DNA of 48,764 bases from an uncultured Planctomycetia bacterium (GTDB taxonomy: Bacteria > Planctomycetota > Phycisphaerae > FEN-1346 > JAACEH01), in NCBI GenBank assembly GCA_903929765.1, contig CAIYVX010000062.1, positions 1 to 48,764 on the forward strand, in the 5' to 3' direction. Every line of letters starts with the position of its first letter. Positions within the stretch are counted from its first letter, which is position 1. Both the position numbers and the translations under genes were made by a program. The notes under the pieces are model-generated. The model ran no database searches. It was given only the letters and a program-made list of their open reading frames with translations, and was not told where the DNA came from. Of the stretch, positions 9,717 through 37,537 are shown piece by piece.

Positions 9717-9792
9717 GTTGGGCCTTGGCCCGACAGGTTAATTCCGGGTGCCACACTTTGAAGCCCCGGCTTCATCGGGGCCAAAGTGTGTT
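9714..9792 (+). repeat. Family F and family C hairpins after rsmA
   Basis: TGTAGGTTGGGCC-TTGGCCCGACA (family F, 9714-9742) is followed by GGGTGCCACACTTTG-AAGCCCCGG-N-CGGGGCCAAAGTGTG (family C, 9743-9792). The first overlaps the rsmA stop. As strong hairpins at a convergent gene end they could act as transcript ends, but there is no U-tract. The remaining 9793-9835 holds nothing recognisable. Confidence 0.7.
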
Positions 9793-9835
9793 CTTCTTCT
9801 TGTTTCTTATTTGCATCGTCTGGGCGTCTGAAATG

Positions 9836-11596: not shown

Positions 11597-12471
11597 AGCC
11601 GATCCAGTCCGTCGTCCTCCGCGAGCGCTCGAATCCACGGCTCGCTCATCAGCCGTTCCATCCGCCCCCGCGTCCGCCGCCGCACGATCCGCCGGTTGAT
11701 CTTCCGCCGTTCGCTCACCAGAGCCGTCGCGTGCGACACGTGCACCACCAGTTCCCGCATCTGTGCCCTCGCCAGCAACCGCACATGATAACCCCGCGCC
11801 GCCAGCCCGTGATAAATCTCTTCGCCCGCCGTCGTCCGCCCGCGCGGCACAAAATCCAGCCCTTCCTTCACCAGCGCCGCCCGCCGATAAAGGGCGCAAA
11901 AACTCCGCGCATGCGGCCGCCGCTCGCGCAACTCTTCCGGCAACTCCCGCCCCGTCACCCGATACGCCGCCCGCCGCCAGGTCTTGCGGTCCACCATCTT
12001 TTTCACCAGCGACCACGCCGCCCCGGACTCATCCGTCTTGTCCGACCCCACCACCGCCAAGAGCGGATCCGCTCGCATCGGCGAAATCAATTCTTCCAAC
12101 CACCCCGCGCGCCGCGGAATCGTGTCCGTGTGCATTGCCAGCACAAACTCACCCTTCGCCTCACGCAACCCCACGTTCAGCGCCGTCGCATGAGCCGCCG
12201 CCCCGCCCAGCGCCGCCGCCTCCGGCCCGCGCTCGATTAGCCGAATCCACTCGACCTGCCGCAAATACTCTAGCGACTCCCCGTCGCCCGACCCGTTGTC
12301 GATCACCAGAACTTCAATCTCGGGTGACTTGCTGGGTGCCATGGTTCTGCTTGCAGAACCATGCTCTTTCGCCGAAAAGGTAAATTTCCGAATCGCCCGC
12401 AGGCATAACTTCGCCAGCTCCGGTGTTTCAAAGTGCGGCAGGATAATGGTCACCAGCGGCGCGTCGGCCAT
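11593..12471 (-). CDS. Family-2 glycosyltransferase
   Basis: This is a 292-residue GT-A fold glycosyltransferase of the GT2 type. The N-terminus A-P-L-V-T-I-I-L-P-H-F-E-T-P begins the nucleotide-binding strand. E-V-L-V-I-D-N-G-S-G-D-G-E-S is the classic second motif, and M-H-T-D-T-I-P fills the place of the D-x-D metal motif. Its place between waaF and the core kinase suggests it adds a sugar to the LPS core; the donor and acceptor are unknown. A repeat at 12330-12370 inserts H-G-S-A-S-R-T-M-A-P-S-K-S just before V-L-V-I-D-N. I chose the ATG giving MADAPLVTII; longer starts extend into a repeat. The stop overlaps the kinase start by 4 bp. Confidence 0.87.
   Translation of the reverse strand: MADAPLVTIILPHFETPELAKLCLRAIRKFTFSAKEHGSASRTMAPSKSPEIEVLVIDNGSGDGESLEYLRQVEWIRLIERGPEAAALGGAAAHATALNVGLREAKGEFVLAMHTDTIPRRAGWLEELISPMRADPLLAVVGSDKTDESGAAWSLVKKMVDRKTWRRAAYRVTGRELPEELRERRPHARSFCALYRRAALVKEGLDFVPRGRTTAGEEIYHGLAARGYHVRLLARAQMRELVVHVSHATALVSERRKINRRIVRRRTRGRMERLMSEPWIRALAEDDGLDRL
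12330..12370 (+). repeat. Family M palindrome inside the glycosyltransferase gene
   Basis: GGGTGCCATGGTTCTGC-TTGCAGAACCATG is a near-perfect hairpin inside the coding region. It is read in frame on the - strand and lies between the first helix and the V-L-V-I-D-N strand. Confidence 0.82.
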
Positions 12472-12509
12472 AGAATGTTGCCAGGTTGTTTCTTTTGCCG
12501 TTGTTACTT

Positions 12510-12540
12510 TCGTAGGGGCAGAGTTTATCTCTGCCCTGCC
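12510..12540 (+). repeat. Family G palindrome
   Basis: CGTAGGGGCAGAG-TTTAT-CTCTGCCCTG lies in the 86-bp gap between waaF and the glycosyltransferase. The same element occurs inverted at 28295-28324. It carries a GTAG foot. Confidence 0.8.
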
Positions 12541-12557
12541 GTTGCTGTTCCTGAAGT

Positions 12558-13631
12558 CTATTTTCCTGCCGTCGCCACCGGCCCGCTCGCCGCGTAAGAA
12601 TGCTTCTCCACCAGCGCCGTCAGCGCCATAAAAACCTGCTCCGGCGTCACCAGATTCATGCACTGGAGATGTCCCTCCGGGCAGACCCGTTGCTGGCACG
12701 GTCCGCATTCCACGCTAGCCTGGAGCTTCGTTTCCTTCGCAAACCACGTCTCCGTCCAGTTGATATGTGTCGGTCCGAAAATCGTCACCACCGGAATGTC
12801 CCACGCCGCCGCGAAGTGCCGCAACCCCGAGTCGTTCGTCACCATCGCCCGCGCCCGCCGCACCACCGCCTTCACCGTCGCCAGACCCGGCAACTCCGCC
12901 GGCACGACCGCCGCCCCGTCCGCCGCCGCCACAATCGTCTGCGCCACCGCCATTTCCTTCGGCGCACACAAGATCAGCGTCTTGAGGCCCAGCTTCGCCC
13001 GCGCCTCCCGGGCCACCTGCGCAAACCGTTCCGCCGGCCAGCACTTCGCCAGTCCGAACGCCGCCCCCGGCGCCAGCACCAGCGTTTGCGCCGCTACAAG
13101 TCCCAGCGCCGCATAAAGCCGGTCCGCCGCCGCCTCGTCTGCCGTCGTCGTGTATAGCCGCAGGGCGAGCGTCTGTTCGTGTGCCCCCAACCGCCGCACC
13201 AGGTCGAAGTAATAAGTCAGCGCCGGCGTCGGCACGTACCGCCCGTTTTCCTTCAGCGGCTTCAGCCGGTCCGTCAGCAGCCAGCCGCGCCACTCGCGGT
13301 CATACCCGATGCGTTGCCGCACGCGCCCCAGAAAAAAGAGCAGGGCCGAGCGGAACGAGTTCGTCATCAGGACGCCGGCCTCGTAGCCCGCGGCGTCACC
13401 CGGCGTGTGCCGCAACCGTTCCGCCAGCCGCAACAGGTTTTCCCCCTGCCCGCGCGGACCCCACAGCATGATTTCATCCGCATACGGCGCCGCCTCGAAC
13501 ACCGGCGCCACGTACGGCCGCGCGATCAGCGTCAGATGGCTCTCTGGATGTGCCGCCTTCAGCGCCGCCAGGGCCGGCGTGGCCATGACCGCATCGCCGA
13601 TCCAGTTCGGGCAGGCGACTACTATTCGCAT
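12558..13631 (-). CDS. waaF: ADP-heptose--LPS heptosyltransferase (WaaF/RfaF-type, GT9)
   Basis: A GT9-family heptosyltransferase of 357 residues that transfers heptose from ADP-heptose to the LPS inner core on the cytoplasmic face of the inner membrane. The N-terminus R-I-V-V-A-C-P-N-W-I-G-D-A-V-M-A-T-P-A-L is typical of the WaaC/WaaF group. The C-terminal donor-binding domain has T-N-D-S-G-L-R-H-F-A-A-A and V-T-I-F-G-P-T. The later C-G-P-C-Q-Q-R-V-C-P motif is frequent in WaaF-type proteins. The start was set at the ATG 7 nt after GGAGG; another ATG 6 nt upstream lies too close to that site. It follows gmhB by 15 nt in the operon. Heptosyltransferase II is the best match but the exact acceptor is not shown. 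Confidence 0.92.
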   Translation of the reverse strand: MRIVVACPNWIGDAVMATPALAALKAAHPESHLTLIARPYVAPVFEAAPYADEIMLWGPRGQGENLLRLAERLRHTPGDAAGYEAGVLMTNSFRSALLFFLGRVRQRIGYDREWRGWLLTDRLKPLKENGRYVPTPALTYYFDLVRRLGAHEQTLALRLYTTTADEAAADRLYAALGLVAAQTLVLAPGAAFGLAKCWPAERFAQVAREARAKLGLKTLILCAPKEMAVAQTIVAAADGAAVVPAELPGLATVKAVVRRARAMVTNDSGLRHFAAAWDIPVVTIFGPTHINWTETWFAKETKLQASVECGPCQQRVCPEGHLQCMNLVTPEQVFMALTALVEKHSYAASGPVATAGK

Positions 13632-13646
13632 CACCATGCCTCCACT

Positions 13647-13937
13647 TCACCCGGATTTCCGCGAAATCAAAAACATCGTCAGCGCCACCAACTGGGCGAA
13701 GATCGCCGCCACAAACAGGGTTATCGCCGGGACAGGATTGTTGCTCAGGAGTACCGAAAGCGTGCCTCCGATGCCCAGGCACAGGGCCAACCCTTGCGCC
13801 AGGTACCCGAACATCCGCGACACGCCGAACGACTCGTCGTTCTGCCGCCGCAACATTCGCCGCACATCTGTCAGCACCGTTTCCACCGACTCCGCACTCG
13901 CCCCCGCCGGTCGGGTGGTCTGGTCGCGTGTCGTCAT
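13647..13937 (-). CDS. Small two-span membrane protein (possible separate gene within the gmhB frame)
   Basis: The last 96 codons of the gmhB frame begin with their own ATG (MTTRDQTTRPAGAS). They encode a soluble helix with R-R-M-L-R-R-Q-N-D-E-S-F-G-V-S-R, then two hydrophobic spans near residues 46-64 and 68-88 ending R-K-S-G. This looks like an originally independent small membrane protein. No clear Shine-Dalgarno precedes the ATG, because the family D repeat occupies that position. Function is unknown, and whether it is made alone or only as a GmhB fusion cannot be decided from sequence. Confidence 0.45.
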   Translation of the reverse strand: MTTRDQTTRPAGASAESVETVLTDVRRMLRRQNDESFGVSRMFGYLAQGLALCLGIGGTLSVLLSNNPVPAITLFVAAIFAQLVALTMFLISRKSG

Positions 13938-14741
13938 GTAGGGCGGTTGCTTGACAACCGCCGCATTAAAAGGTTGTTTTCCGCTTGGCGTTGCCGTTGC
14001 TTTTTCTTCACCCCTCTCCCTTGAGGGGAGAGGGTAGGGTGAGGGTGCTGCTTCTTCACCCCTCTCCCTTGGGAGAGGGTGGCCGGAACGGCCGGGCGAG
14101 GGGTTGAGGCCGGGAGCCATACGAGTTCCGGTTTTTTCTCCCGCTTGCGCCCACCCCGCTATTCTTTGCCGCGCGTCTTCCGCCGTCGTCCCCAGAATAA
14201 TATCCGCCGCCTCGTCCAGATCGCGGGCCTCGCCCAGGATCGGCAGGTCCGGCCGCGCCGCCTCCTCGCGCCCCTTCGGCCGCGCCAGTTTCACGCTCGG
14301 CACACCCACCGCCAGCGCCGCCTCCACGTCCCGCCAGGCGTCTCCGATGGCGAACGATTGACTCAGGTCCACACCCAACTCGTCCCGCGCCCGCAGAAAC
14401 AGTCCCGGCCTGGGCTTGCGGCACCGGCAATCCACCGCATATTTCCCCACCGTCCCCTCCGGCAGGTGCGGGCAATACAGCACCGCGTCCAGCCGACCGC
14501 CCAGCATTTCCACCTGTTCCACCAGCCGCTCGTGAATCTGCCCCAGTTGCTCTTCGCTCACCAGACCCCGCGCCACCGCGGACTGATTCGTCGCCACCAC
14601 CACCAGATAACCCGCCGCCCGAAACCGTTCGATCCCCGCGATGGCTCGCGGCAGAATCCGAATCTGTTCCGGCGAACTCAGGTAGTCCGCGTCCTCGATC
14701 AGCGTTCCGTCGCGGTCCAAAAATATCGCAGGTTGGCTCAT
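13647..14741 (-). CDS. gmhB: D-glycero-D-manno-heptose 1,7-bisphosphate 7-phosphatase (GmhB) fused in frame to a small membrane module
   Basis: GmhB removes the 7-phosphate of heptose bisphosphate between the two HldE steps of ADP-heptose synthesis. Residues 1-195 are a complete HAD phosphatase: F-L-D-R-D-G-T-L nucleophile motif, A-T-N-Q-S, the zinc loop C-P-H-L ... C-R-C-R-K-P with four ligands, and I-G-D-A-W-R-D. The family normally ends near residue 190. Here the frame continues without a stop through three palindromic repeats (13937-14110), then through a 96-residue segment with two hydrophobic spans. The open frame of 364 residues therefore either encodes a repeat-linked fusion or hides a second gene starting at 13937. 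It lies between gmhA (120 bp upstream, repeat-filled) and waaF. Confidence 0.85.
   Translation of the reverse strand: MSQPAIFLDRDGTLIEDADYLSSPEQIRILPRAIAGIERFRAAGYLVVVATNQSAVARGLVSEEQLGQIHERLVEQVEMLGGRLDAVLYCPHLPEGTVGKYAVDCRCRKPRPGLFLRARDELGVDLSQSFAIGDAWRDVEAALAVGVPSVKLARPKGREEAARPDLPILGEARDLDEAADIILGTTAEDARQRIAGWAQAGEKTGTRMAPGLNPSPGRSGHPLPRERGEEAAPSPYPLPSRERGEEKATATPSGKQPFNAAVVKQPPYMTTRDQTTRPAGASAESVETVLTDVRRMLRRQNDESFGVSRMFGYLAQGLALCLGIGGTLSVLLSNNPVPAITLFVAAIFAQLVALTMFLISRKSG
13937..14110 (+). repeat. Family D plus two family A repeats bridging gmhB and the membrane module
   Basis: Family D lies at 13937-13990, family A at 14008-14047, and a longer family A variant at 14055-14110. On the - strand the three are translated in frame as linker, including [13 protein letters not shown], with no stop codon. 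Confidence 0.8.
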
Positions 14742-14758
14742 GGTTTTCGTTTCTTTTT

Positions 14759-14810
14759 CACCCCTCCCCCTTGAGGGGGGAGGGTGGCCCTTCAGGGCCG
14801 GGTGAGGGTG
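14759..14810 (+). repeat. Family A palindrome between gmhA and gmhB
   Basis: ACCCCTCCCCCTTGAGGGGGGAGGG continues into a second hairpin, GGCCC-TTCA-GGGCC, and GGTGAGGGTG. It occupies most of the 120-bp gap between gmhA and gmhB. Confidence 0.75.
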
Positions 14811-14861
14811 CGCCTGTTGCGCCAAAATCGCTGGTTGCTGCTGTTTCTTCTTTACCCCGTC

Positions 14862-15434
14862 TCACGACTGGAACATCGTCTTCTCGATCAGCCCGCAAAT
14901 AATGTGCAGCAGCGTGATGTGCACCTCCTGAATGCGCGGCGTCTGATCGCTCGGCGCCGCGACCAGGCAATCCGCCAACTCCTTCAACTGACCGCCCGTC
15001 TCTCCCGTAAATGCAATCACCGTGCACTTCGACTTCCGCGCCACCGCCGCCGCCTTCAGCACGTTCGTCGCGTTGCCGCTCGTCGATAGCGCGATCAGGC
15101 AATCCCCCGGATGCGCAAACGCCGAAACCTGCCGGGCGAAAACTTCCTCAAAATCAAAATCGTTCGCCACCGCCGTCATAATCGAACTGTCCGTCGTCAG
15201 CGCCAGGCACGGCAACGCCTGCCGGTTGATCCGAAACCGCCCCACCAGTTCCCCCGCCACGTGTTGCGCGTCCGCCGCCGACCCGCCGTTGCCGCAAATG
15301 TACACCGTCCCCCCGCGCTGGAAACAGTCGATCAGCAGCCGCGCCGCCTTCTCCACGCTCTCCACGCACCGCTCCAGCGCCCGCGTCTTGATGTCGATTG
15401 ATTGCAGCAGTTGCCCGCGAATGTCGTCTTTCAT
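14862..15434 (-). CDS. gmhA: Sedoheptulose-7-phosphate isomerase
   Basis: GmhA converts sedoheptulose 7-phosphate to D-glycero-D-manno-heptose 7-phosphate, the first step to ADP-heptose, in the cytoplasm. The 190-residue protein is a SIS-domain enzyme of normal length. It has I-C-G-N-G-G-S-A-A-D-A-Q-H near residue 46, the phosphate-binding A-L-S-T-S-G-N-A-T-N near residue 113, and the active-site E-V-H-I-T-L-L-H-I-I-C helix near residue 169. C-G-N-G-G-S-A-A-D-A-Q-H and the late H-x-x-x-x-x-H positions favour GmhA over the related DiaA. Its ATG overlaps the hldE stop by 4 bp, so translation of the two is probably coupled. Confidence 0.93.
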   Translation of the reverse strand: MKDDIRGQLLQSIDIKTRALERCVESVEKAARLLIDCFQRGGTVYICGNGGSAADAQHVAGELVGRFRINRQALPCLALTTDSSIMTAVANDFDFEEVFARQVSAFAHPGDCLIALSTSGNATNVLKAAAVARKSKCTVIAFTGETGGQLKELADCLVAAPSDQTPRIQEVHITLLHIICGLIEKTMFQS

Positions 15435-17053
15435 CCCTTCTTCCTCCCTTTGACCGCCGCCTTGTTGCCCGTTGAAAAAGGCCGTTTCACAGTGGCACGG
15501 GCATCTTGCCCGTGAGTGCCAGGGGCATCCTGCCCCTGGTTTTGCCTTTTTTCAACGGGCTGTTTGCTGGTAAGCGTCCGCCCCGCCGACTTCGCCCGCC
15601 GAGCCTTCTCGATCAGCGCCGTCGACGAAGCCCGGCCCACCAGCGGCGCCAGCACCACCTTGCCCCCGTACCCCGCCACAAACTCGCTCCCCACCACGCC
15701 CTGGCCGCGCCAGTCCTCGCCCTTGACCAGCACGTCCGGTCGCACCGTCCGTATCAATTTATCTGGTGTATCCTCGTCAAATATTACCACATAATCCACC
15801 GCCGCCAGACCCGCCAGCACCCGGGCCCGCTGTTCCGCCGGCACCAGCGGTCGCGGCTCGCCCTTCAGCCGACGCACCGACGCGTCCGAATTCAGCCCCA
15901 CCACCAGCCGATCCCCCTGGCTCCGCGCAAATTCCAAATACTGCACATGCCCGTGGTGCAGCAGGTCGAAGCACCCGTTCGTAAACACCACCCGCGCCCG
16001 GTTCGCCCGGTCCCGGACCACGCTTTCCTCGATCTGTTTCCGCGTCCGAATCTTGCTCGAGGTCGCCATCAGGTCCGTCGCCATCTCCTCCCGCGACACC
16101 GTCTGCACCCCGAACTTCTCCACCTCGATCCCGCCCGCCACGTTCGCCAGAGCCACCGCGTCCTCCAGCCCCGCCCCCGAAGCAATTGCCAGCGACAGCA
16201 CCGAAATGAACATGTCACCCGCTCCCGCGTTGTCGAACACGTTCCGCGGCCGCGTCGGAATCATCCGCCCGCGCTCCCCGCGCCTCGCCACGTACGCCCC
16301 TTCCTTGTCCAGCGTGATCGCCAGGGCCTCCAGCTTCAAATCCCCCATCAGCCGCTCCGCAATCCGCCGCAAGCTCGCCTCGCCCGCAATCTTCAGCCCC
16401 GACGCCTCCTCCGTCTCCACCCGGTTCGGCGTCAACAGCGTCGCCCCGCGATACTTCGCATAATCCGTAAATTTCGTCGGATCAATCAGCACCGGCGCCT
16501 TCCGCCGCCGCGCCGCCCGGATCGCCATCTGGCACAAGCGCGGCGTCACCACGCCCTTCGCATAATCCGATATCAGCAGCACCGCCGACCGCCCCAACGC
16601 CTTCTCCAGCGCCTGCGCCAGCGCCGCCTCAGTCGCCGCATCAATCGCCCGCGTGTCCTCATGGTCGACGCGCAGCACCTGTTGCGGAATCCGCTGCTGC
16701 GCCCGGCCCACGAACCGCGTCTTCACCGTCGTCGGCCGATCGCCCACGCGCCGCACCGCCGCCGTCCCCACCCCGATTTTCTTCAAATGACTCAACACCT
16801 TGGCCCCGTCGCCGTCTCGCCCCACAATCGACACCACCTCTACCGAAGCCCCCAGCGCCGCCAGGTTGTTCGCCACCGCACCCGCGCCGCCCAGACGTTC
16901 TTCCTCGAACGCCACGCGCAGTACCTGGATCGGCGCCTCCTGGCTGATCCGTTCCGCGTCCCCGTGCACATAGCGATCAATCATCAAATCGCCCAGCACC
17001 ACAATGCGCGGCCGTCCCAGCTTTTCGAGAATCTCCCGCAATCGTTCATTCAT
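15431..17053 (-). CDS. hldE: Bifunctional D-heptose-7-phosphate kinase / heptose-1-phosphate adenylyltransferase
   Basis: HldE phosphorylates heptose 7-phosphate at C1 and, after GmhB acts, adenylylates heptose 1-phosphate to ADP-D-glycero-D-manno-heptose. Residues 1-320 are a PfkB/ribokinase-type kinase: V-L-G-D-L-M-I-D-R-Y, G-G-A-G-A-V-A-N-N-L, and the catalytic N-A-G-A-G-D-M-F. Residues 345-480 are a cytidylyltransferase-like domain with F-T-N-G-C-F-D-L-L-H-H-G-H and V-K-G-E-D-W. The family normally ends near 480 residues; here about 55 extra basic residues follow, encoded in part by a family B repeat (15482-15540). MNERLREILEKLG was chosen as start. It is the first gene of the LPS heptose operon. 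The pathway's last enzyme, the HldD epimerase, is not in this window. Confidence 0.95.
   Translation of the reverse strand: MNERLREILEKLGRPRIVVLGDLMIDRYVHGDAERISQEAPIQVLRVAFEEERLGGAGAVANNLAALGASVEVVSIVGRDGDGAKVLSHLKKIGVGTAAVRRVGDRPTTVKTRFVGRAQQRIPQQVLRVDHEDTRAIDAATEAALAQALEKALGRSAVLLISDYAKGVVTPRLCQMAIRAARRRKAPVLIDPTKFTDYAKYRGATLLTPNRVETEEASGLKIAGEASLRRIAERLMGDLKLEALAITLDKEGAYVARRGERGRMIPTRPRNVFDNAGAGDMFISVLSLAIASGAGLEDAVALANVAGGIEVEKFGVQTVSREEMATDLMATSSKIRTRKQIEESVVRDRANRARVVFTNGCFDLLHHGHVQYLEFARSQGDRLVVGLNSDASVRRLKGEPRPLVPAEQRARVLAGLAAVDYVVIFDEDTPDKLIRTVRPDVLVKGEDWRGQGVVGSEFVAGYGGKVVLAPLVGRASSTALIEKARRAKSAGRTLTSKQPVEKRQNQGQDAPGTHGQDARATVKRPFSTGNKAAVKGRKKG
15467..15560 (+). repeat. Family B element with flanking 16-nt inverted repeats in the hldE tail
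   Basis: The family B core lies at 15482-15540. GCCCGTTGAAAAAGGC (15467-15482) and GCCTTTTTTCAACGGGC (15544-15560) flank it as nearly exact inverted repeats, so the whole element can form one long hairpin. It is translated in frame as the hldE C-terminal tail (G-T-H-G-Q-D-A-R-A-T-V). Confidence 0.85.
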
Positions 17054-17109
17054 GAAGGCCAACCTCCGAGCCTCAACGGGCAATTCCACCATCTTACCAC
17101 ACCCGGCAT

Positions 17110-17138
17110 ATAATACCGGGCCGCCCAAACCCCCACAA
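17110..17138 (-). promoter_or_regulatory. Candidate promoter of the hldE-gmhA-gmhB-waaF operon
   Basis: On the - strand TTGTGG (17133-17138) is followed after 17 nt by TATTAT (17110-17115). That would give a leader of about 50 nt before the hldE ATG. The -35 is only a partial match to the sigma-70 consensus, but the same -35 hexamer and spacing precede the HTH gene at 39.8 kb. Confidence 0.45.
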
Positions 17139-17157
17139 CCGAATTTCGCCGAGACTT

Positions 17158-17434
17158 TGGGTGGCATGGCGGCCGCTGTTTGCCGCCATGTTCAGGGGCC
17201 TGTCGTCTTGAATGAGAATTCTGTTGCTGTTGCTTTTGTTGTTCTTCGTCCCGGCTGCCTCACGCCCATCCATTATCGCCCCCGACCAGCCGCAAAGCGG
17301 CGAAAGTATTTAGCCGGCGGCGTAAGCCGCCGGTCCTGACAAATATCAATTCTTCTTCTTTTTCTTCTTCTGCTGTTGCTGTTGTTTCTTCGCTGTTGCC
17401 GTTAATTTTTAATTTTTCATTTTTAATTTTGAAT
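17158..17434. repeat. Divergent intergenic repeat block (families M, E, AT-rich)
   Basis: The divergent gap between hldE and argB contains a family M copy at 17158-17200. A family E copy at 17281-17340 has two adjacent hairpins, GCCGC-AAA-GCGGC and CCGGCGGCG-TAAG-CCGCCGG. An AT-rich tract lies at 17399-17434. No gene is seen. Confidence 0.75.
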
Positions 17435-17505
17435 TCGAACTTCCCCAGCATCGCCCGCAATTTTTCTTTTGTATTCCCCGCCGAAAAAGGTAACTTTTAC
17501 CGTTT

Positions 17506-18381
17506 ATGGAACCTGCCACCGAAAAAGCCGCCACGCTGATCGAAGCCCTGAGTTACATTCAGCGCTTCCGCGACAAGGTCGTCGTCGTCAAAATGGGCGG
17601 CAGCTTCTTCGACGACGAGGCCTCGCGCCGCAGCGTCCTCACCGACCTCGTCTTCATGTGGGCCGTCGGCATCCACCCTGTCCTCGTCCACGGCGGCGGC
17701 CCCGCCATCAGCCGCGCCATGAAAGACGCCAATCTCCAGCCCAAATGGGCTTCCGGCCTCCGCTTCACCGACGCTGTCACCCTTTCCATCGTCCAGGACG
17801 TCCTGATCAACACCATCAACAAGCAACTCGTCGAAGAGGTCCGCGAACTCGGCGGCCTGGTCGAACCGATTCATCCCCGCAACCGTCCCGTCCTCCGCGC
17901 CATCCAGAAATTCGGCCAGGACGAACAGGGCGAGCCGGTCGATCTTGGCTACGTCGGCGACGTCACCGACGTCGATCTCTGGATTCTCTCGCGCCTGGTC
18001 CAGGAAGATGTCATTCCCGTCATCGCCCCGCTCGGCCTGGGGGCCGACGGCCAGGTTTACAACGTCAATGCCGACACCGCCGCCGCCAAAGTCGCCGTCG
18101 CCATGCACGCCGAAAAGCTCGTCAACATGTCCGACACCCACGGCATTCGCACCCGCGCCAACGATGCCGCCAGCACCGCCGAATCCCTCAACGCCGCCGA
18201 AATCGACCGCCTCGTCGCCGCCGGCCAGATCACCGGCGGCATGATTCCCAAGGTCGAATGTTGCCTCACCGCCGTGCGCGGCGGAGTCAAAAAGAGCCAC
18301 ATCATCGACGGTCGCATCAAGCATTCGCTCCTCCTCGAAATCTACACCGACCAGGGCGTCGGCACCGAAATCGTCGCGTAG
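17506..18381 (+). CDS. argB: Acetylglutamate kinase
   Basis: ArgB phosphorylates N-acetyl-L-glutamate, the second step of arginine biosynthesis, in the cytoplasm. The 291-residue protein is an amino-acid-kinase fold of standard length. It has V-V-V-K-M-G-G-S near residue 25, V-L-V-H-G-G-G-P near residue 62, and the substrate loop G-L-R-F-T-D. Also present are N-V-N-A-D-T-A-A-A near residue 186 and the late G-G-M-I-P-K ATP-binding motif. An N-terminal helix (A-T-L-I-E-A-L-S-Y-I-Q-R-F-R) precedes the fold; in other ArgB proteins such a helix goes with arginine-inhibited hexamers, so feedback control is plausible. AAAGGTAAC lies about 10 nt before the ATG. The other arginine genes are not nearby. 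Confidence 0.95.
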   Translation: MEPATEKAATLIEALSYIQRFRDKVVVVKMGGSFFDDEASRRSVLTDLVFMWAVGIHPVLVHGGGPAISRAMKDANLQPKWASGLRFTDAVTLSIVQDVLINTINKQLVEEVRELGGLVEPIHPRNRPVLRAIQKFGQDEQGEPVDLGYVGDVTDVDLWILSRLVQEDVIPVIAPLGLGADGQVYNVNADTAAAKVAVAMHAEKLVNMSDTHGIRTRANDAASTAESLNAAEIDRLVAAGQITGGMIPKVECCLTAVRGGVKKSHIIDGRIKHSLLLEIYTDQGVGTEIVA

Positions 18382-18394
18382 AGCAGGGGGGGCT

Positions 18395-18714
18395 GTTATG
18401 TAGGGCGGATGCGCTGTTTGCAGCCGCCACAATTAAAGCCGTTTTCCGATTGGTGTTGCTGTTTTTGTTGCTGCCGTCCGCCCTGAAAGGGCGCGTGGTT
18501 CCTAGCCTGGGGTGAAACCCCCGGTAGGCGAACCAATGAAATATGTTTTTCTTTTTCTTCTTTTTTGCTGTTTCACCCCTCTCCCTTGAGGGGAGAGGGT
18601 AGGGTGAGGGTGCACCTGTTGCGCCCAATTCGCTCTGTGCCGCAGTTGTTGTTTCTGTTACTGTTGTTTCTTCTTCACCCCTCTCCCTTGAGGGGAGAGG
18701 GTAGGGTGAGGGTG
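18395..18714. repeat. Intergenic repeat block (families D, E, A, A)
   Basis: In the 361-bp gap between argB and cysE there are family D at 18395-18455, an E-like element with two hairpins at 18471-18538, and family A at 18573-18612 and 18675-18714. The last two are near-identical 40-bp copies. No gene is seen. Confidence 0.8.
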
Positions 18715-18742
18715 TTGCTGTTTTTGTGAGGAATTTTTATTT

Positions 18743-19771
18743 ATGGCCACTCGAAAAAAAAATCCTAAATCTTCCGCCTCCCAACCGGAGGCCGTCGTCT
18801 GCTCCGCCCGCGAACTTTCTCTCACCCCCGACCAGCTCGCCGCCCTGTCCCAGCGTCAGGAACGCTACAGCGCCCTGCCCGAAATCGTCCGCGCCATCGT
18901 CGCCTCCTGCGACTCCCTCCCCGAAATCAACCATCTCGACGGCACCTCCCTGCCCGAAACCGAGATCGTCGTCCGCATCGTCGCCGTCACCCAGGAAATC
19001 TTCTTCCCCGGCTACTACGGCGACAAATCCTGCGCCGCCGACAATCTCGCCTACCATGTCGGCGACCGACTCCACGAGCTTTATCTCATGCTCGCCGAAC
19101 AGATTTACCGCTCCGTCCGCCACGATTGCCGCCGCTCCGGGCCCGAGTGCCGCCATTGCCGCGGCCTGGCCGAGGTCAACGCCCAGGACGTCCTCCGCCG
19201 CATCCCCGAAATCCGCCGCCTTCTCACCCTCGACGTCAAGGCCGCCTTTGACGGCGACCCGGCCGCGCGCGGCTACCACGAAATCATCCTCTCTTACCCC
19301 GGCCTCCTCGCCGTCTCCGTCTACCGCCTCGCCCACGAACTCTGGGTTCTTGGCATCCCGCTCCTCGCCCGCATGATCGGCGAATACGCCCACACCCGCA
19401 CCGGCATCGACATTCATCCCGGCGCCGCCATCGGCGAATCCTTCTTCATCGACCACGGCACCGGCGTCGTCATCGGCGAAACCACCGTCATCGGCTCGCG
19501 CGTCAAACTCTACCAGGGCGTCACCCTCGGCGCCCTCAGCTTCCCCAAAGACGCCTGCGGCAACCTCATCCGCGGCCAGAAACGCCATCCCACCATCGAG
19601 GACGATGTCACCCTCTACGCTCACGCCACCGTCCTCGGCGGCACCACCGTCGTCGGTCGCGGCAGCACCATCGGCGGCAACGTCTGGCTCACCGATTCCG
19701 TCGAGCCCCACACCTTCGTCTCCGCCGAACGTCCTGCCCTCATCGTCCGCACCAGCAAATCCCGCAAGTAG
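18743..19771 (+). CDS. cysE: Serine O-acetyltransferase
   Basis: CysE transfers acetyl from acetyl-CoA to L-serine to give O-acetylserine for cysteine synthesis. The 342-residue protein has an N-terminal helical domain of about 200 residues with a Cys cluster ([12 protein letters not shown]). A left-handed beta-helix follows with hexapeptide repeats: [21 protein letters not shown] and L-Y-Q-G-V-T-L-G-A. The active-site Asp-His pair in I-D-H-G-T-G is present. The length and extended N-terminus resemble EpsC/plant-like forms rather than the 270-residue enterobacterial enzyme. GTGAGGA lies 10-11 nt before the start. The Cys cluster in the helical domain is unusual and could bind metal. Confidence 0.9.
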
Positions 19772-19790
19772 GGGGTCGGGTGTACCGAAA

Positions 19791-19837
19791 TCCGGGTGCC
19801 ACACTTTGAAGGCCCGACAAGTCGGGACCAAAGTGTG
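19791..19837 (+). repeat. Family C palindrome after cysE
   Basis: CCGGGTGCCACACTTTG-AAGGCCCGACAAGTCGGGACC-AAAGTGTG is a nested hairpin just past the cysE stop, in the left-side orientation. It may serve as a transcript end. From 19838 to 19990 I see no gene or clear signal. Confidence 0.75.
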
Positions 19838-19990
19838 TGTTGTGTCCATCATGGATTTCCATCCGCCTCATCCGCCACAATCTGTCTAACCACTTATCCC
19901 ACCTGGACTTACGTCAACTCCACCACCGCTGCCCGTCGCCCTCCCGCCTCGCCATGCCTCCAACCGTTATCTCTTCACCATCTTGCCAAT

Positions 19991-20019
19991 TTGACTTTGG
20001 CCCGTTTCTAACTTATAAT
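19991..20019 (+). promoter_or_regulatory. Sigma-70 promoter
   Basis: TTGACT (19991-19996), a 17-nt spacer, then TATAAT (20014-20019) is the best sigma-70 promoter in the window. It would give a leader of about 145 nt before the lipoprotein gene at 20170. Confidence 0.75.
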
Positions 20020-20032
20020 GTTATAAGGAGTT

Positions 20033-20080
20033 ATGAGAAAACAAAATGTCCATCAAGTCAAATGTAGTGCAGCGGAATGA
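20033..20080 (+). CDS. Possible 15-residue leader peptide
   Basis: Immediately downstream of the promoter, AAGGAG (20025-20030) is followed at short spacing by ATG and a 15-codon frame (M-R-K-Q-N-V-H-Q-V-K-C-S-A-A-E) ending in TGA. It could be a translated leader controlling the lipoprotein gene, or a chance frame. The site lies in an AT-rich stretch close to the GC-skew switch. The spacing between AAGGAG and ATG is only 2 nt, shorter than ideal. Confidence 0.3.
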   Translation: MRKQNVHQVKCSAAE

Positions 20081-20169
20081 GATTTGCACTTGACATTGTC
20101 GGCGGTCGTGCCGCTTCGCCCTCGGGCGTTGCTCCTCGACCGCAGTTTCGCCGTGTTGAGGTATTTGAG

Positions 20170-20523
20170 ATGAAAACCAAATGCGCGATTGCCGCCGCAA
20201 TTGTGGCTCTGGCCTTAGCCCTGCTCTTCCTGTCCGGCTGTGGCCAGCCGAATCAGAAAGCCCAGGCTCTGCCTCCGCCTACGCCCGCCCAGAAAATCAG
20301 TGCCACCCTCTTCGGCCCGAACCCCTTGGCCCTCGGCCAGGAAGATCGCGGCTACTTCGCCACCACGCTGCTCGCCGCCGAAGCGCCGCTCCTGCTCTTC
20401 GAAGACCGCCGCCGCAGCTACGTCCGCACCGAAATCTGGGATAACGAGAACAACTTCGCCCCATTCTCGAGCCAGTACCAGATGTGGCGCCACTCGGTCG
20501 ACGAAGGCCCGGCTCAGCGTTAG
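20170..20523 (+). CDS. Small lipoprotein, unknown function
   Basis: This is a 117-residue protein with a lipoprotein signal: M-K-T-K, an Ala/Leu-rich hydrophobic core, and lipobox L-S-G-C with Cys at about residue 24. The mature part of about 94 residues starts with a Pro-rich linker (A-L-P-P-P-T-P-A-Q-K) and continues as a short mixed region with R-R-R-S-Y-V-R-T-E-I-W-D. No family was recognised. I chose the ATG that starts the signal peptide over one 93 nt upstream that lacks it. It is served by the promoter at 19991-20019 and stands alone, followed by a palindromic repeat. Confidence 0.6.
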   Translation: MKTKCAIAAAIVALALALLFLSGCGQPNQKAQALPPPTPAQKISATLFGPNPLALGQEDRGYFATTLLAAEAPLLLFEDRRRSYVRTEIWDNENNFAPFSSQYQMWRHSVDEGPAQR

Positions 20524-20549
20524 AGCAGTTAACGATTGAATGGTTACTT

Positions 20550-20600
20550 CCAGGGTGCCACACCTTGGCCCCCTGGCTGTTTGGGGGCAAGGTGTGAGGA
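20550..20600 (+). repeat. Family C palindrome (rightmost left-oriented copy)
   Basis: CCAGGGTGCCACACCTTG-GCCCCC-N-GGGGGC-AAGGTGTG. This is the last repeat with the left-side orientation. A short orphan piece GCGCCACTTTGAAGGCCCGGCC lies at about 20680-20702. Confidence 0.7.
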
Positions 20601-20772
20601 TGGCCGGCAAACATTCCCATAGAGTACAACCAATCGTTATATGTTATAGATATCTGCATCTACTCAAAATGAGGAGTCGTGGCGCCACTTTGAAGGCCCG
20701 GCCAAACAGTTCATGTTGGTGTGGCTTTTCCATTCCCGCGGGCGTTATCACAAAAAATTCCCCTTGAAAAAA

Positions 20773-20802
20773 TTGAACGTTTTCTTCTACTGATCGTATA
20801 TT
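20773..20802 (+). promoter_or_regulatory. Candidate promoter for the zinc-ribbon membrane protein
   Basis: TTGAAC (20773-20778), an 18-nt spacer and TATATT (20797-20802) lie in an AT-rich stretch and give a leader of about 37 nt. AGGCGAGG (20833-20840) is the ribosome-binding site. Confidence 0.5.
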
Positions 20803-20845
20803 ATGGTGCGGTTAGTGGCGGGGGAACCCTTTAGGCGAGGTGCGT

Positions 20846-22027
20846 ATGCCGACGATTAAGGCCGGTTGCACGAAATGCGGCAAGGCGTTTGGCGTGCTCG
20901 AACAGCAATTGGGCACGGAGGTGCAATGTCCGCACTGCAAAGCGCGGATGAAGATTCCCAAGCTGAATCGCCCCACGAAGGCCTCCTCCGGTGCGGCGAG
21001 CGCCCTCGACGACGCCGCGGCGCAGCTTGGCCTGCCGGGTAAACCGAAGCCGCCCGGCGACGGGCTGGACGATCTCCTGGCGGCGACGCAGCAGAAACCG
21101 GCCGCCAGACACGAGCAGGTCGAGTCCCGCCCGGCCCACGGCCACACGGCGGGCCACAGCCATCTGGACTCCTCGGAGGATGAGCTTCCGGCGCGGCCCC
21201 CCACCGGATTGATGAAGAACCCAGGCGTGGTCTTTACGTTGGCCGGCGTTCTGCTCCTGATCATCGTGGTGTTCTTCTATGTCATCATGACGAACAAGAA
21301 CGGAGTGTCGGATCAGACCATAGGCGACGGCCAAACGCAAGCCGACGGTCCGATGACGGCCGCCAAGAGCGCGGCTATGGCCGCGGTCCTCAACAAGGTG
21401 GGGCCGGGCGCCAGGGGGCCGGCGCCTACGTCCGAGTCCGCCACGCCGCTGACCATGGACGACTCGGATAAAGGCAAGCCCGATGAGTACTTCGAACTCA
21501 GAAAACAGTTGCCGATGGTCCACTTCGCCATGTTTCAGAATACGACCAACGACTTGGTCGAACGCGCCGCCGCGACGATCAGCGTTTGGGACGGCAAAAA
21601 AATGCTGGTCGAAAAGACCTTTATCTTCCGCGACGTGCAGCCCGGGCAGAAGGTGCCGGCGATTATCGCCTATCCTTACACCGACGCGAAACTGAAATTC
21701 GAGACCAAGTGGCGGCATTGGGCGCCGGGCAAACCGGTCTATAAAATTGCCGCCACCTTCCTGGGCGTCCGTGGGCACGGCGATTCCGGCGGCACCGTGA
21801 CCGTCGAGGTCCGCAATGACAACGAAGTGGCCGCCCCGATGGTCGATGTCACCGTGATTCTGATGGACACTAAATCTCTGCAGCGGTCCGGCTACGTTAC
21901 GGCCACGGTCCGGGATCTCAAGCCACACGAAGGCCGCAATGTCGAGATTCCCTGGGAAGGCTTCGAGTCGGACTCGATCAGCGGCGGGGATGCTTACGCC
22001 CAGATCGGCGGAGCCGAAACCGAGTAA
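20846..22027 (+). CDS. Zinc-ribbon, single-span membrane protein with C-terminal beta domain
   Basis: This is a 393-residue protein of unknown function. Residues 5-35 form a zinc ribbon, C-x2-C ... C-x2-C (A-G-C-T-K-C-G-K-A-F ... V-Q-C-P-H-C-K-A-R-M), of the MJ0042-like type often found at the N-terminus of planctomycete membrane proteins. A charged, His-rich linker follows. One hydrophobic span lies near residues 129-151, then a flexible Ala/Pro region. The last 180 residues are soluble and strand-rich, with F-E-T-K-W-R-H-W-A-P-G-K-P and G-T-V-T-V-E-V-R-N-D-N-E-V-A-A-P, resembling FxLYD/DUF3426-type or CARDB-like beta sandwiches. ATG at 20846 is preferred over GTG 6 nt earlier because of spacing from AGGCGAGG. 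It converges on the GT-C gene with a 7-bp gap. Confidence 0.7.
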   Translation: MPTIKAGCTKCGKAFGVLEQQLGTEVQCPHCKARMKIPKLNRPTKASSGAASALDDAAAQLGLPGKPKPPGDGLDDLLAATQQKPAARHEQVESRPAHGHTAGHSHLDSSEDELPARPPTGLMKNPGVVFTLAGVLLLIIVVFFYVIMTNKNGVSDQTIGDGQTQADGPMTAAKSAAMAAVLNKVGPGARGPAPTSESATPLTMDDSDKGKPDEYFELRKQLPMVHFAMFQNTTNDLVERAAATISVWDGKKMLVEKTFIFRDVQPGQKVPAIIAYPYTDAKLKFETKWRHWAPGKPVYKIAATFLGVRGHGDSGGTVTVEVRNDNEVAAPMVDVTVILMDTKSLQRSGYVTATVRDLKPHEGRNVEIPWEGFESDSISGGDAYAQIGGAETE

Positions 22028-27282: not shown

Positions 27283-27311
27283 TTGACATTGCCGCCGGGA
27301 CGGCGTAGGAT
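27283..27311 (+). promoter_or_regulatory. Sigma-70 promoter giving a possibly leaderless transcript
   Basis: TTGACA (27283-27288), a 17-nt spacer and TAGGAT (27306-27311). The expected transcription start falls at or next to the ATG at 27319, so the mRNA may lack a leader. Confidence 0.5.
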
Positions 27312-27318
27312 GGTGCCC

Positions 27319-28164
27319 ATGAGCGTTTCCCTGGCATTTTCGACCAACGCCTACACGCGATTTTCCCTGGCTGCGGCGGTGCGGCGCATCGCCGCGTGCG
27401 GCTATCGCGGCGTGGAAATCCTGGGCGACCGGCCACACGCCTATCCGCCGGAATTTTCGCCGCAGGAGGTGAAGGAACTGAAGGCGCTGCTGGACGAGTT
27501 GGGCCTCGCGGTCTCGAATTTCAATGCTAATACGATGTTCGGTTACTGGACCGACGCGCCGGCGGAACCGTTTTTCGAGCCGAGCCTGGTGTCGGAATCG
27601 AAGAAGCACAGGACGGCGCGGCGAAAGATGATTCTGCGGTCGCTGGAGATTGCCGCGGGGCTTGGGGCCGGGTCGATTTCCATCACCAGTGGCCGGCCCC
27701 TGGGCGGGATGACGCCGGAACGGTGCGCCGAGGCGTTCGGCGAGGAGTGCGGGATTATATTGCAGCGCGCCGAGCGGCTGGGCGTGAACGTCGGCATCGA
27801 GTGCGAACCGGGCCTGCTGATCGAGCGCAGCGACGAGCTTCTCTCCTGGATCGCCCGTCTCGACTCGCCGCGCGTGGGGGCGAACCTCGACGTCGGCCAC
27901 GCCGTCGTCGCCGGAGAGGATCCGGCGGCAGCCATCGAGCGCCTGGCCGGGCGAATCTGGAATCTACACCTGGAGGACATTTGCGCGCGGAAACACTATC
28001 ACCGGATACCGGGCGAGGGCGAGATTGATTTTGCAGCCATCGCCGCAGCGCTGGAGCGCACTGGTTACGACGGTTTCGCCACGGTCGAGCTTTATACGCA
28101 AACCGCCGATCCGGACGCGGCAGCGCGGCGAAGCCTGGAAGTGCTGGGACCGGTTTTCGAGTAG
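27319..28164 (+). CDS. Sugar phosphate isomerase/epimerase-family TIM barrel protein
   Basis: This 281-residue protein has the xylose-isomerase-like TIM barrel shared by sugar isomerases, epimerases and endonuclease IV. It begins S-L-A-F-S-T-N-A-Y-T-R-F and has G-Y-R-G-V-E-I-L-G-D with the first strand Glu. Other barrel strands are V-G-I-E-C-E-P-G (metal Glu), G-A-N-L-D-V-G-H (metal Asp/His) and H-L-E-D-I-C-A-R-K-H-Y-H-R-I-P-G-E-G with late His and Glu. Metal ligands therefore look intact. The substrate is unknown. ATG at 27319 is used; another ATG 9 nt upstream is possible but lies on the -10 box. The gene stands between two methyltransferase loci without evident linkage. Confidence 0.82.
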   Translation: MSVSLAFSTNAYTRFSLAAAVRRIAACGYRGVEILGDRPHAYPPEFSPQEVKELKALLDELGLAVSNFNANTMFGYWTDAPAEPFFEPSLVSESKKHRTARRKMILRSLEIAAGLGAGSISITSGRPLGGMTPERCAEAFGEECGIILQRAERLGVNVGIECEPGLLIERSDELLSWIARLDSPRVGANLDVGHAVVAGEDPAAAIERLAGRIWNLHLEDICARKHYHRIPGEGEIDFAAIAAALERTGYDGFATVELYTQTADPDAAARRSLEVLGPVFE

Positions 28165-28974
28165 GTCGGGTCAACAGACCCGACACTTTGTTCTGAAGAT
28201 AATGTCGGGTCTGTTGCCTCGACCTACATGCTGAAATTCACGGGCGAGACGCCCGTGTCACTGTAAAAAATGGGAGCCGGCTCCCGCCGGTACGTCAGGG
28301 CAGAGATAAACTCTGCCCCTACGAATGCGAAAACAACAAACGTCACGGCCGGGCCAGGGCACCCACAACCCCGCTTACGTCGATGGTCAGCACGGAAGAC
28401 ATTGCGCCGCTCCCGTCCCTCATTCCACCCGTCGGCTGTAATGCTGCGGGGCGATTGTCGCTCGCCCCGGAAGCCCTCGGGCGCTAGCCGACCCGGGGCT
28501 TGTGCGCTGGAAGACGTGGCGAAGAAGCTTGGCCTAACCTTTTCGCCACCCAGCTCGATTGGAGGGTCTTAATCAGCCATAAGGCCCTTCATAATAACGC
28601 GTACTTGTCTCAGGGGGTGGCGCGATTTCAGACGAAAAATGAGGGTGCGGCAAAAGGCGAAAAAAGATTTTTTTTGACGCACACGCAAGAAGGATAAGGA
28701 GTTAGAAAAATTTTCATAATTTTGAAAGAATTTTTGTTAGGGTGTACGGGGTGAGACACGGCCGTGTAGCGGCCGAGAGCAGGAGAGCAGGGGAGCAGGA
28801 GAGCAGGAGAGCAGGAGAACTGGAGGAACGGCAACGGCGGAAGAGTGGTCAGTGGTCAGTGGACAGTAACGGCAACAACAGCACCCTCACACTACGTTCA
28901 CGAAGGACTTGAGTGGTAAGTCTTTGACAAATACTACGATGCTTGGGAAAATGGCCTTACCAGTCGGAGGCCTT
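28161..28974. repeat. Long repeat-rich gap (families F, B, G, N)
   Basis: No gene is seen in 810 bases. Family F forms two facing hairpins at 28161-28230 (GTCGGGTCAACAGACCCGAC and GTCGGGTCTGTTGCCTCGAC). A family B half-copy lies at 28239-28266 and inverted family G at 28295-28324. A mixed region follows with GGGGCGATTGTCGCTCGCCCC. Inverted family N at 28750-28822 consists of about five short GAGAGCAGG-type units after CGGCCGTGTAGCGGCCG. The ribosome-binding site CGGAGG (28965-28970) serves the next gene. Confidence 0.75.
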
Positions 28975-30453
28975 ATGTCGAACAAACTTTACTACGGCGA
29001 TAATCTCGACATCCTGCCCCGCTATGTCGCGGATGAGTCAGTCGACCTGATTTACCTCGATCCTCCGTTCAATTCCAACGCGGACTACAACATTTTATTC
29101 GCCGAACATGACGGCACGGGGGCGGCCGCGCAAATCAAAGCGTTTGTGGATACATGGCAATGGGATGAAACGGCGGCGCGGACCTATGAAGTCGTGGTCG
29201 AGCAGGGCGGGCCGGTGTCCCAGGCGATGCAGGCGTTTCGCATGCTGCTGGGCGGAAGTGACCTCCTGGCCTATCTGACGATGATGGCCCCGCGTCTGGT
29301 GGAGTTGCGCCGGGTGCTGAAGCGGACGGGTTCGCTTTATCTGCATTGCGACGCCACGGCCGGTCATTACCTCAAGATTTTGATGGACGCCGTGTTCGGC
29401 CCCAAAAACTTTCGTAACGAGATCATCTGGTACTATTACAATAAGATGCACGACCGGCGGAAGGGACTCTTTCCCAACGCGAACGACACGATTTTGTTTT
29501 ATGTCAAAGATGTCGATTCTGAATTTACGTTCCATCAGTTAAAAGAGATGCGCGAGCAGCCCGTCAAGCAATTGGCCCGCAAGAAGTTCCAGGGGCGGAT
29601 GGTCAACGTCAAGGACGCCGAAGGGCACGTGGTCTACCGGATGAAGGAAGACCGCACCATCGACAACGTGTGGCGGCTGCCCTGCCTCCAGCCTGCGGCA
29701 GCCGAGTGGCTAGGATATCCAACGCAAAAGCCGGAGAGCGTTTTGGAGAGGATCATCCTGGCGAGTAGCAATGAGGGTGATCTATTATTGGATCCGTTCT
29801 GTGGATGCGGGACGGCGGTGGCCGTGTCCCAGCGGCTGAATCGCCGATGGATCGGGATCGACATCACGCACTTGGCCATCAACTTGATAAAGAACCGCAT
29901 GCAAGACGCCTTTGGGGCGAAGGGCAAGTACGAGGTCATCGGCGAGCCGGTGTCGGTGGCCGATGCCGAGGAGTTGGCCGGTACCAAGCCGTACCAATTC
30001 CAGTATTGGGCGCTCGGCCTCGTGCCCGGAGCCAGGCCGGCGGAGATCAAAAAGGGGGCCGACAAAGGTATCGACGGTCGTCTCTATTTCCACGACGAAG
30101 GCGAGTCGGGCCAGACCAAGCAAGTCATCTTTTCGGTCAAGGCGGGGCAACTTCACGCGCCCTACATTCGGGATTTGCGTGGCGTGATTGACCGTGAGAA
30201 AGCGGAAATCGGCGTCCTTATTTCGATGCAGCCGCCGACTCAACCGATGCGGGCGGAAGCAGCCAGCGCCGGATTTTACGATTCGCCCTGGGGCACCCGC
30301 CATCCGCGCCTGCAACTTCTGACCGTGGAGGAGTTGTTGACCGGGAAGAAAGTAGATATGCCGCCGACCGGCGACCTGCGAACTTTCAAGAAAGCCCGCA
30401 AAGCTGGGACGAAGCCGGCAGCTACGCGGAAACTGTTCGACAAAAAATCATAG
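28975..30453 (+). CDS. Site-specific DNA methyltransferase fused to a Mrr-like nuclease domain
   Basis: This 492-residue protein has two parts. Residues 1-310 are an amino-methyltransferase of the beta-like order. Motif IV D-P-P-F is at residues 29-32, a recognition region is in the middle, and SAM motif I D-P-F-C-G-C-G-T-A near residue 272 is followed by W-I-G-I-D-I. Residues about 355-450 resemble a PD-(D/E)XK/Mrr-like nuclease: K-G-A-D-K-G-I-D-G, then Q-V-I-F-S-V-K-A-G, with Ser where Asp/Glu/Gln is usual. An I-R-D-L segment follows. A basic tail ends the protein. This could be a single-chain restriction-modification enzyme or a solitary methyltransferase with a degenerate nuclease. MSNKLYYGDN was chosen as start because CGGAGG lies 4 nt upstream of it. 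It stands alone, 2.5 kb from the EcoRI-type pair. Confidence 0.87.
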   Translation: MSNKLYYGDNLDILPRYVADESVDLIYLDPPFNSNADYNILFAEHDGTGAAAQIKAFVDTWQWDETAARTYEVVVEQGGPVSQAMQAFRMLLGGSDLLAYLTMMAPRLVELRRVLKRTGSLYLHCDATAGHYLKILMDAVFGPKNFRNEIIWYYYNKMHDRRKGLFPNANDTILFYVKDVDSEFTFHQLKEMREQPVKQLARKKFQGRMVNVKDAEGHVVYRMKEDRTIDNVWRLPCLQPAAAEWLGYPTQKPESVLERIILASSNEGDLLLDPFCGCGTAVAVSQRLNRRWIGIDITHLAINLIKNRMQDAFGAKGKYEVIGEPVSVADAEELAGTKPYQFQYWALGLVPGARPAEIKKGADKGIDGRLYFHDEGESGQTKQVIFSVKAGQLHAPYIRDLRGVIDREKAEIGVLISMQPPTQPMRAEAASAGFYDSPWGTRHPRLQLLTVEELLTGKKVDMPPTGDLRTFKKARKAGTKPAATRKLFDKKS

Positions 30454-30481
30454 AGCTTGTCTGCCAGATTGGCAGTCTGCG

Positions 30482-30516
30482 GCCTTGCCAAGCCCCATTT
30501 TTGGCAAGGTTTGCTT
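30482..30516 (+). terminator. Candidate terminator after the methyltransferase
   Basis: GCCTTGCCAA ... TTGGCAAGGT forms a 10-bp hairpin followed by a weak T-rich run (TTGCTT). A second small hairpin (CTGCCA-GAT-TGGCAG) precedes it at about 30460-30475. Confidence 0.45.
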
Positions 30517-30617
30517 CGATTTATCCACGCCGAAAGTTTGATCTGACAGAATATAACTCACTAATGGTCAAGAGGTTACACGCATAACGACGGCAAGTGT
30601 TCTTGGTTTTTATATCT

Positions 30618-30632
30618 TGGCACGGGCTTTGC
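30618..30632 (+). promoter_or_regulatory. Sigma-54 (RpoN) promoter
   Basis: TGGCAC-GGGCT-TTGC matches the sigma-54 -24/-12 consensus TGGCAC-N5-TTGC exactly, with the usual T before TGG and the G after CAC. It lies 44 nt before the response regulator start. Confidence 0.7.
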
Positions 30633-30676
30633 GATTATGTGGTATGAGGGCTTGCGCCGTGGTTTGAGGTGTTGCA

Positions 30677-31078
30677 ATGGTGGTAACAGAGGAAAGAACG
30701 GCACGCGGGGTGCGGATTCTTGTAACCGACGATGACCGGCGGTGGCGGGAAGGGCTGCGCGAGGCGTTTGAGCCGCAGGGCTACGAGACGCTGGAGGCCG
30801 AGAGCGGCGAAGAGGCCATCGAGTTGGTGCATGAGGTCCGGCTGAGCCTGGTGATTCTCGACATTCAGTTGCCGCACCTGAACGGGATCGAGACGCTGCG
30901 GATTATCCGCCAGGAAATGGGCGAAGGTTTGCCGGCGATCGTGGTTTCGAGCGAAGTGACCGACCGGGCTTTGGCCGAGGCGTTGGCCCTGCACGCTTAT
31001 ACGGTGATGAATAAGATGGTGGGGCTGCACCAGATGCTGTATACTGTATCACGCGCTTTGGCGAGAGCGGGGAAGTAG
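30677..31078 (+). CDS. Orphan single-domain response regulator
   Basis: This is a stand-alone receiver domain of 133 residues, without an output domain. Expected receiver residues are present: acidic pair D-D-D near residues 19-21, phosphoacceptor Asp in V-I-L-D-I-Q-L-P near residue 61, and Ser in V-V-S-S-E near residue 89. The conserved Lys is in V-M-N-K-M-V near residue 113, where K is preceded by M-N rather than the usual K-P context. Such proteins act as phosphorelay intermediates or bind a target protein directly. The partner kinase is not nearby. A sigma-54 promoter precedes it, so expression probably needs an enhancer-binding activator. Confidence 0.85.
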   Translation: MVVTEERTARGVRILVTDDDRRWREGLREAFEPQGYETLEAESGEEAIELVHEVRLSLVILDIQLPHLNGIETLRIIRQEMGEGLPAIVVSSEVTDRALAEALALHAYTVMNKMVGLHQMLYTVSRALARAGK

Positions 31079-31292
31079 ACGAATTAAAAATTAAAAATGC
31101 AAAATTAAAAATTAACGGCAAAAGAAGAAGAATCACCCTCACCCTACCCTCTCCCCTCAAGGGAGAGGGGTGAAGAAGCAAAAGAAGCAACAAAAGAAAC
31201 GGCAACGCCAAAAGGAAAACGGCATTTACTGCGGCGGCTGCAAACGGCGCAACCGCCCTACATAACGGCAAATTTGAAAGGAGAAGTGTGGC
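31079..31292. repeat. Repeat block before groES (AT-rich, A, D; all inverted)
   Basis: An inverted AT-rich tract (AATTAAAAATTAAAAATG) at 31082-31115, inverted family A at 31134-31176 and inverted family D at 31205-31266 fill the gap. AAAGGAG lies just upstream of the groES ATG. No CIRCE (TTAGCACTC-N9-GAGTGCTAA) element is visible. Confidence 0.75.
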
Positions 31293-31580
31293 ATGAAGAT
31301 CAAACCCCTGGGCGACAAGATTGTCGTCAAGCGGCTCGAGGCGGAAACGAAGACGGCGGGCGGGATTGTGCTGCCGGACTCGGCCAAAGAGAAACCCAAA
31401 CGCGGCAAAGTCGTCGCCGTCGGCGATGGCAAGATTCTGGAAAACGGCAAGCGGGCGGCGCTGTCGGTCAAAAAGGGCGACGAGGTGGTCTTCACGTCCT
31501 ATGCCGGGACCGAAGTCAAGGTCAGCGGCGATGAACTGATTATCATGAGCGAAAGCGATGTTCTGGCGATTGTGGAATAA
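31293..31580 (+). CDS. groES: Co-chaperonin GroES
   Basis: This 95-residue co-chaperonin caps the GroEL ring during ATP-driven protein folding. It has the standard length, with [10 protein letters not shown] at the start. The mobile loop [14 protein letters not shown] near residues 19-32 carries the GroEL-binding I-V-L tripeptide. [14 protein letters not shown] follows near residue 67. AAAGGAG gives a strong ribosome-binding site. groEL follows 272 bp later, a gap much longer than usual and filled with repeats. Confidence 0.97.
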
Positions 31581-37516: not shown

Positions 37517-37537
37517 GCGGAGATTATACCGGAAGGC

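Follow-up and report, generated by a model that had tools for sequence, protein, structure and literature searches.

An abrupt GC-skew switch in a planctomycete draft genome: a probable rearrangement junction exposed by unusually strong strand bias

Is the abrupt change of GC skew near 20.5 kb of this DNA a replication origin, an inversion boundary, as a preliminary description had proposed, or something else? The window, by which we mean the whole stretch of 48,764 nucleotides, is the entire contig C62 of a draft genome (G000) of 3.83 Mb in 116 contigs. A two-segment fit to its GC skew placed the best breakpoint at 20,478, with means of -0.252 on the left and +0.079 on the right, and the minimum of the cumulative skew fell at 20,479. 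The abrupt switch described near 20.5 kb was confirmed by permutation of 4-kb blocks of the window, where the split exceeded the shuffles (p ~0.003). All 20 of the 1-kb bins between positions 1 and 20,000 were negative (-0.13 to -0.41), and the bins past 21 kb were mostly between ~0 and +0.22, apart from lower values at 24-25 and 41-43 kb.

Genes were called with a simple dicodon model, and the skew was split by gene direction and codon position. At the fourfold-degenerate sites left of the switch, the + strand skew was -0.79 in + genes and -0.68 in - genes, in agreement with the earlier observation that this side is C-rich on the + strand whatever the gene direction. This polarised block (1..20519) has a raw skew of -0.25 and fourfold values of about -0.7 to -0.9 in most genes, which include surE, pdxA, the gene of a DUF4159 protein, ksgA, heptose/glycosyltransferase genes, gmhA/rfaE-like genes, argB, cysE, and a lipoprotein gene. 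Most of them have homologs in the relatives G001 and/or G003. The cysE-like serine acetyltransferase gene (18743..19771, + strand) reaches -0.90, while the small lipoprotein gene that ends the block (20170..20523, + strand) is the sole gene there with a clearly intermediate fourfold skew (-0.36). Two matches to the Acido-Lenti-1 RNA above the gathering score were also found in this block, at 1813-1858 and 17288-17333 of the - strand.

The right-hand side had been described as mostly G-rich. This holds for the raw skew, which is slightly positive, but not for the fourfold sites at 20.8-35.1 kb, where the strand bias is absent (-0.02 in + genes and -0.01 in - genes). The raw G excess of this region is found mainly at the first codon positions of genes mostly running in the + direction and, since the fourfold skew is zero in both gene directions, the G-rich appearance is mainly a first-codon-position effect. 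Positive fourfold polarity right of the switch was detected only at 35-40 kb (+0.28, +0.54) and in a gene at 45.3-46.6 kb (+0.34). The positive-polarity genes at 36638..39247 comprise a - gene with +0.54 and a + GGDEF gene with +0.44, the latter having an ortholog on contig C27 of G001.

The skew survey was extended to sampled stretches covering 1.68 Mb of the 3.83-Mb draft (44% of the genome), the first contigs being chosen for carrying the repeat discussed below, so that the sampling was not fully random. This part contains 43 skew change-points, with seven minus-to-plus and nine plus-to-minus sign changes, or, when a strict fourfold criterion is applied, four each way, the window's own included. 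Strong blocks of both signs (skew size ~0.17 to 0.3) are interspersed with nearly unskewed ones; on one contig a strong block extends over most of 150 kb, and flat unskewed blocks reach 128 kb. The bias follows the strand and not the direction of the genes, and blocks of either sign show it repeatedly, the + strand fourfold skew being common to neighbouring genes of opposite direction (r = 0.76). The GC of fourfold sites is ~0.85-0.90 in every gene class (about 87% for the genome), whereas the C:G split is 44:42 in weak genes but 77:13 in the strong C-rich class; within strong blocks, C versus G at these sites ranges from about 5:1 to 19:1 at nearly constant GC. That the bias ignores gene direction and peaks at synonymous sites is characteristic of the replication type. 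GC skew is known to be tied to replication direction, from which we infer that replication direction is the cause of the bias. A single stretch of E. coli (300-345 kb), used as a yardstick and not as a benchmark, gave fourfold skews of 0.15 and 0.06. It is the strength of the bias that deserves attention, rather than the switch, in a comparison that covers this one E. coli stretch and published remarks on the Borreliaceae.

A locus that is a replication origin, or lies beside one whose right replichore was overwritten by acquired DNA, would show a minus-to-plus change, which is the polarity seen here, and the positive polarity at 35-40 kb also speaks for it. The change is, however, one of seven of its kind in 44% of the genome (four by the strict criterion) where a unique one was expected, and the strong opposite polarity expected immediately on both sides gives way on the right, at 20.8-35.1 kb, to a fourfold skew of ~0. 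The preliminary description had seen no perfect DnaA box at the switch, and our search agrees: 19.5-21.5 kb holds no box with up to two mismatches to TTATCCACA, the 12 one-mismatch sites of the window (10 expected) all lie away from the switch, and no cluster of boxes was found at the switch or elsewhere in the sampled genome. The dnaA gene is located on another contig (C94, 5.6 kb), inside a uniform block of +0.21. Some origins lack DnaA-box clusters recognisable by a simple pattern, and dnaA need not adjoin the origin. The genes flanking the break also have one polarity in the gene order of G001 (see below), and an origin at this locus must be considered very improbable. Several fixed origins per chromosome, of which the switch would be one, would explain why minus-to-plus switches recur, but a sharp-up/gradual-down pattern would then be expected; the skew jumps above 0.2 in the sampled part were 8 up and 10 down, and flat unskewed blocks as long as 128 kb would be unexpected, making this explanation scarcely credible.

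For comparison of gene order, orthologs were placed in the order of G001, which belongs to another genus of the same family and has a weaker skew; that this order is ancestral is an assumption. Genes now found on several G000 contigs form, in G001 order, runs of constant polarity with few flipped exceptions. The sign of polarity agrees between the two genomes in 20 of the 25 orthologs measurable in both, these genes being clustered and not independent events. A constant sign along replichores, absent in the present contig order, is largely restored in that of G001, both genomes being drafts. Orthologs that keep their polarity in the order of the relative are what a strong replication-type bias scrambled by rearrangement predicts.

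The switch coincides with a break in this order. On contig C67 of G001, the succession is cysE (70% for the cysE-like gene of the window), lipoprotein, X, and Y. In G000, the cysE-lipoprotein pair, adjoining in G001 as well, ends the left block, and X and Y are found at the end of contig C40; the conserved order therefore breaks at 20.52 kb, right at the switch, as judged from one relative, G001. The junction (20478..20840) is thus both the skew breakpoint and the end of conserved gene order. X and Y retain the left-block polarity on C40 (fourfold skew of X, -0.74), so that polarity in G001 order is unchanged past the lipoprotein gene and the switch arises from other DNA joined there. Since the displaced X and Y kept the left polarity, a simple local inversion is a poorer fit than an insertion or a translocation. 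Of the inversion boundary first suggested, the rearrangement boundary is supported, as the gene order of G001 breaks there, and the simple local inversion is less so. A right-hand segment flipped in place, with its skew relaxing to the new direction, would agree with the positive polarity at 36-39 and 45.3-46.6 kb and with orthologs elsewhere that look flipped (genes of C43, C33, and C1), but the orphan and restriction-modification genes at 20.8-26.4 kb are absent from most relatives searched and, together with the polarity of X and Y, make such an inversion quite improbable.

The genes right of the switch indeed start with orphans and restriction-modification genes. Two genes without family matches, at 20840-22027 (+) and 22035-23723 (-), have fourfold skews of ~0, and the first found matches in just 2 of the 12 relatives searched, weak in both. 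An EcoRI-type adenine methyltransferase gene (23997-25259, +) is followed directly by the gene of a GmrSD_N/HNH protein (25256-26422, +), for which a 77% identical relative was found in G008 and none in G001 or G003; the two (23997-26422, + strand) are a possible restriction-modification pair. As a counterpoint to an insertion, part of the right side is conserved in the family: xylose-isomerase-like, response-regulator-like, and Cpn60 genes (27283..33475, +) are in the same order as on contig C34 of G001, in a run interrupted by a DNA methyltransferase/Mrr-like gene (28909-30453). No integrase was detected among the window proteins scanned with Pfam, and the only tRNA of the window (3222-3296) is not at the boundary. 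The switch accordingly lacks the integrase, tRNA, or attachment repeats that would delimit a genomic island.

Exactly at the junction lies a MITE-like repeat (20520..20649, +) of ~130 bp that has a hairpin core and ends in imperfect inverted repeats of 19 bp (TTAGAGCAGTTAACGATTG / CAATCGTTATATGTTATAG). Its first bases supply the stop codon of the lipoprotein gene, and it makes up part of the second of the two AT-rich patches previously noted at the switch. The sampled part of the genome contains 21 copies, on many contigs (e.g., L002-L008). Short, with terminal inverted repeats and in multiple copies, the element has the features of MITEs and, being non-coding too, those of REP-like repeats; the MITE-like label is given on form and copy number, not on a parent transposase or a target duplication. 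The hairpin core (GGTGCCACACCTTGG...) is also found on its own, at 20553-20598, at 19798-19842, and in many places in G000 and G001. In translation, a copy of the core seems to make up the C-terminal end of the RfaE-like protein (residues ~530-568), and the translated core seems to turn up again in different reading frames in the two genomes.

Two tandem copies of the repeat are found near the corresponding break on C40, and the copy at the junction may be a sign of insertion or recombination. Repeats as a general cause of skew breaks were rejected: the repeat seed lies within 500 bp of 7.7% of the breakpoints and of 6.8% of random points. Because breakpoints in general show no enrichment, we do not lean on the junction repeat as a cause. 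The same element bears on a possible chimera of assembly or binning, in which stretches of one or two related genomes would have been wrongly joined at a repeat. The draft is short-read-like, in 116 contigs, the dispersed repeat sits exactly at the join, and published work treats breaks in skew as an indication of misassembly (PMC7717575; PMC7111523). The nearest other copy of the 20520-20649 repeat is, however, 92% identical and so a poor bridge, and as the other breakpoints are not at repeats, chimeras would have to be many. The low contamination estimate (1.4%) and the occurrence of the pattern inside contigs disfavour two mixed genomes, and we consider a chimera unlikely.

Part of the unskewed DNA of this genome is plainly mobile, with an IS21 pair lying within a strong block, phage-type genes (C94), and tandem integrases (C47). 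In a random comparison of 18 strong-block with 18 weak-block genes, for which the queries were concatenated gene pieces and the rows were scored by eye, conservation was higher in the strong blocks: G001 matches reaching at least 50% identity were found for 13/18 strong vs 7/18 weak genes (p = 0.09), and matches in G003 for 9/18 vs 2/18 (p = 0.03). Strong and weak genes did not differ, however, in how often they had reciprocal best hits with the part of G001 that was sampled. The genes for ribosomal proteins, rpoBC, rpoD, PPDK, and GroEL are weakly skewed yet conserved, and the rule that weak skew always denotes acquired DNA was rejected, as clusters that are conserved and probably highly expressed show weak skew as well. 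Because both mobile DNA and conserved genes show it, weak skew has at least two causes, the second being, at a guess, selection on the codons of highly expressed genes. Over the length of the ribosomal protein/rpoBC cluster (C82 ~6-42 kb; G001 C27 ~21-59 kb), the fourfold skew drifts from ~+0.5 to -0.4, in parallel in the two genera.

Our preferred explanation, to which we give about two chances in three, is that the switch is a junction produced by insertion or translocation, at which long-resident, strongly biased chromosome was joined to little-biased DNA. The left side would be the resident chromosome, whose extreme compositional asymmetry between strands most likely arose from mutation during replication; the right side would combine acquired-looking restriction-modification and orphan genes with family genes brought from elsewhere, some of opposite polarity. 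We also infer that the bias was already established when the right-hand DNA came in and that the cell itself, not just the assembly, has this junction. Dozens of joins of this sort are present in the genome. The switch is real and of a familiar kind, probably a rearrangement junction made visible by an unusually strong strand bias, and a skew switch on a single contig of a draft genome is not safely read as an origin. Tentatively, and with some doubt, this lineage could have evolved a replication-strand bias that ranks with the strongest known from GC-rich bacteria, through changed replication or repair recent enough that the skew of a segment records its time in the present direction. If the strong bias holds in a closed genome, fourfold skew would be a natural clock of that time and, if true, would date the arrival of acquired or rearranged DNA.

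The Borreliaceae, with their extreme replication-strand bias and third codon positions whose composition differs very strongly between strands (PMC6042203), resemble this genome by description, not by numbers, and are low in GC, in contrast to the ~87% fourfold GC found here. Skew shifts that are not at origins, as here, were reviewed as GC-skew pseudo-shift points arising from inversions and horizontal transfer (PMC3269016); the review names them for weakly biased sequences, whereas the resident bias here is strong. In Sodalis SOPE, skew is disrupted by rearrangements whose breaks are, in the passages considered, tied to IS elements (PMC3914690), while the breakpoints of the present genome are not enriched for the repeats tested. 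For Wolbachia, GC skew scrambled by rearrangement has been described, with reordering into a relative's gene order used as a test (PMC4703054). Skew polarity has been broken up by rearrangements in both as it has here (PMC4703054, PMC3914690); both are host-associated, and the resident bias of the present genome is much stronger.
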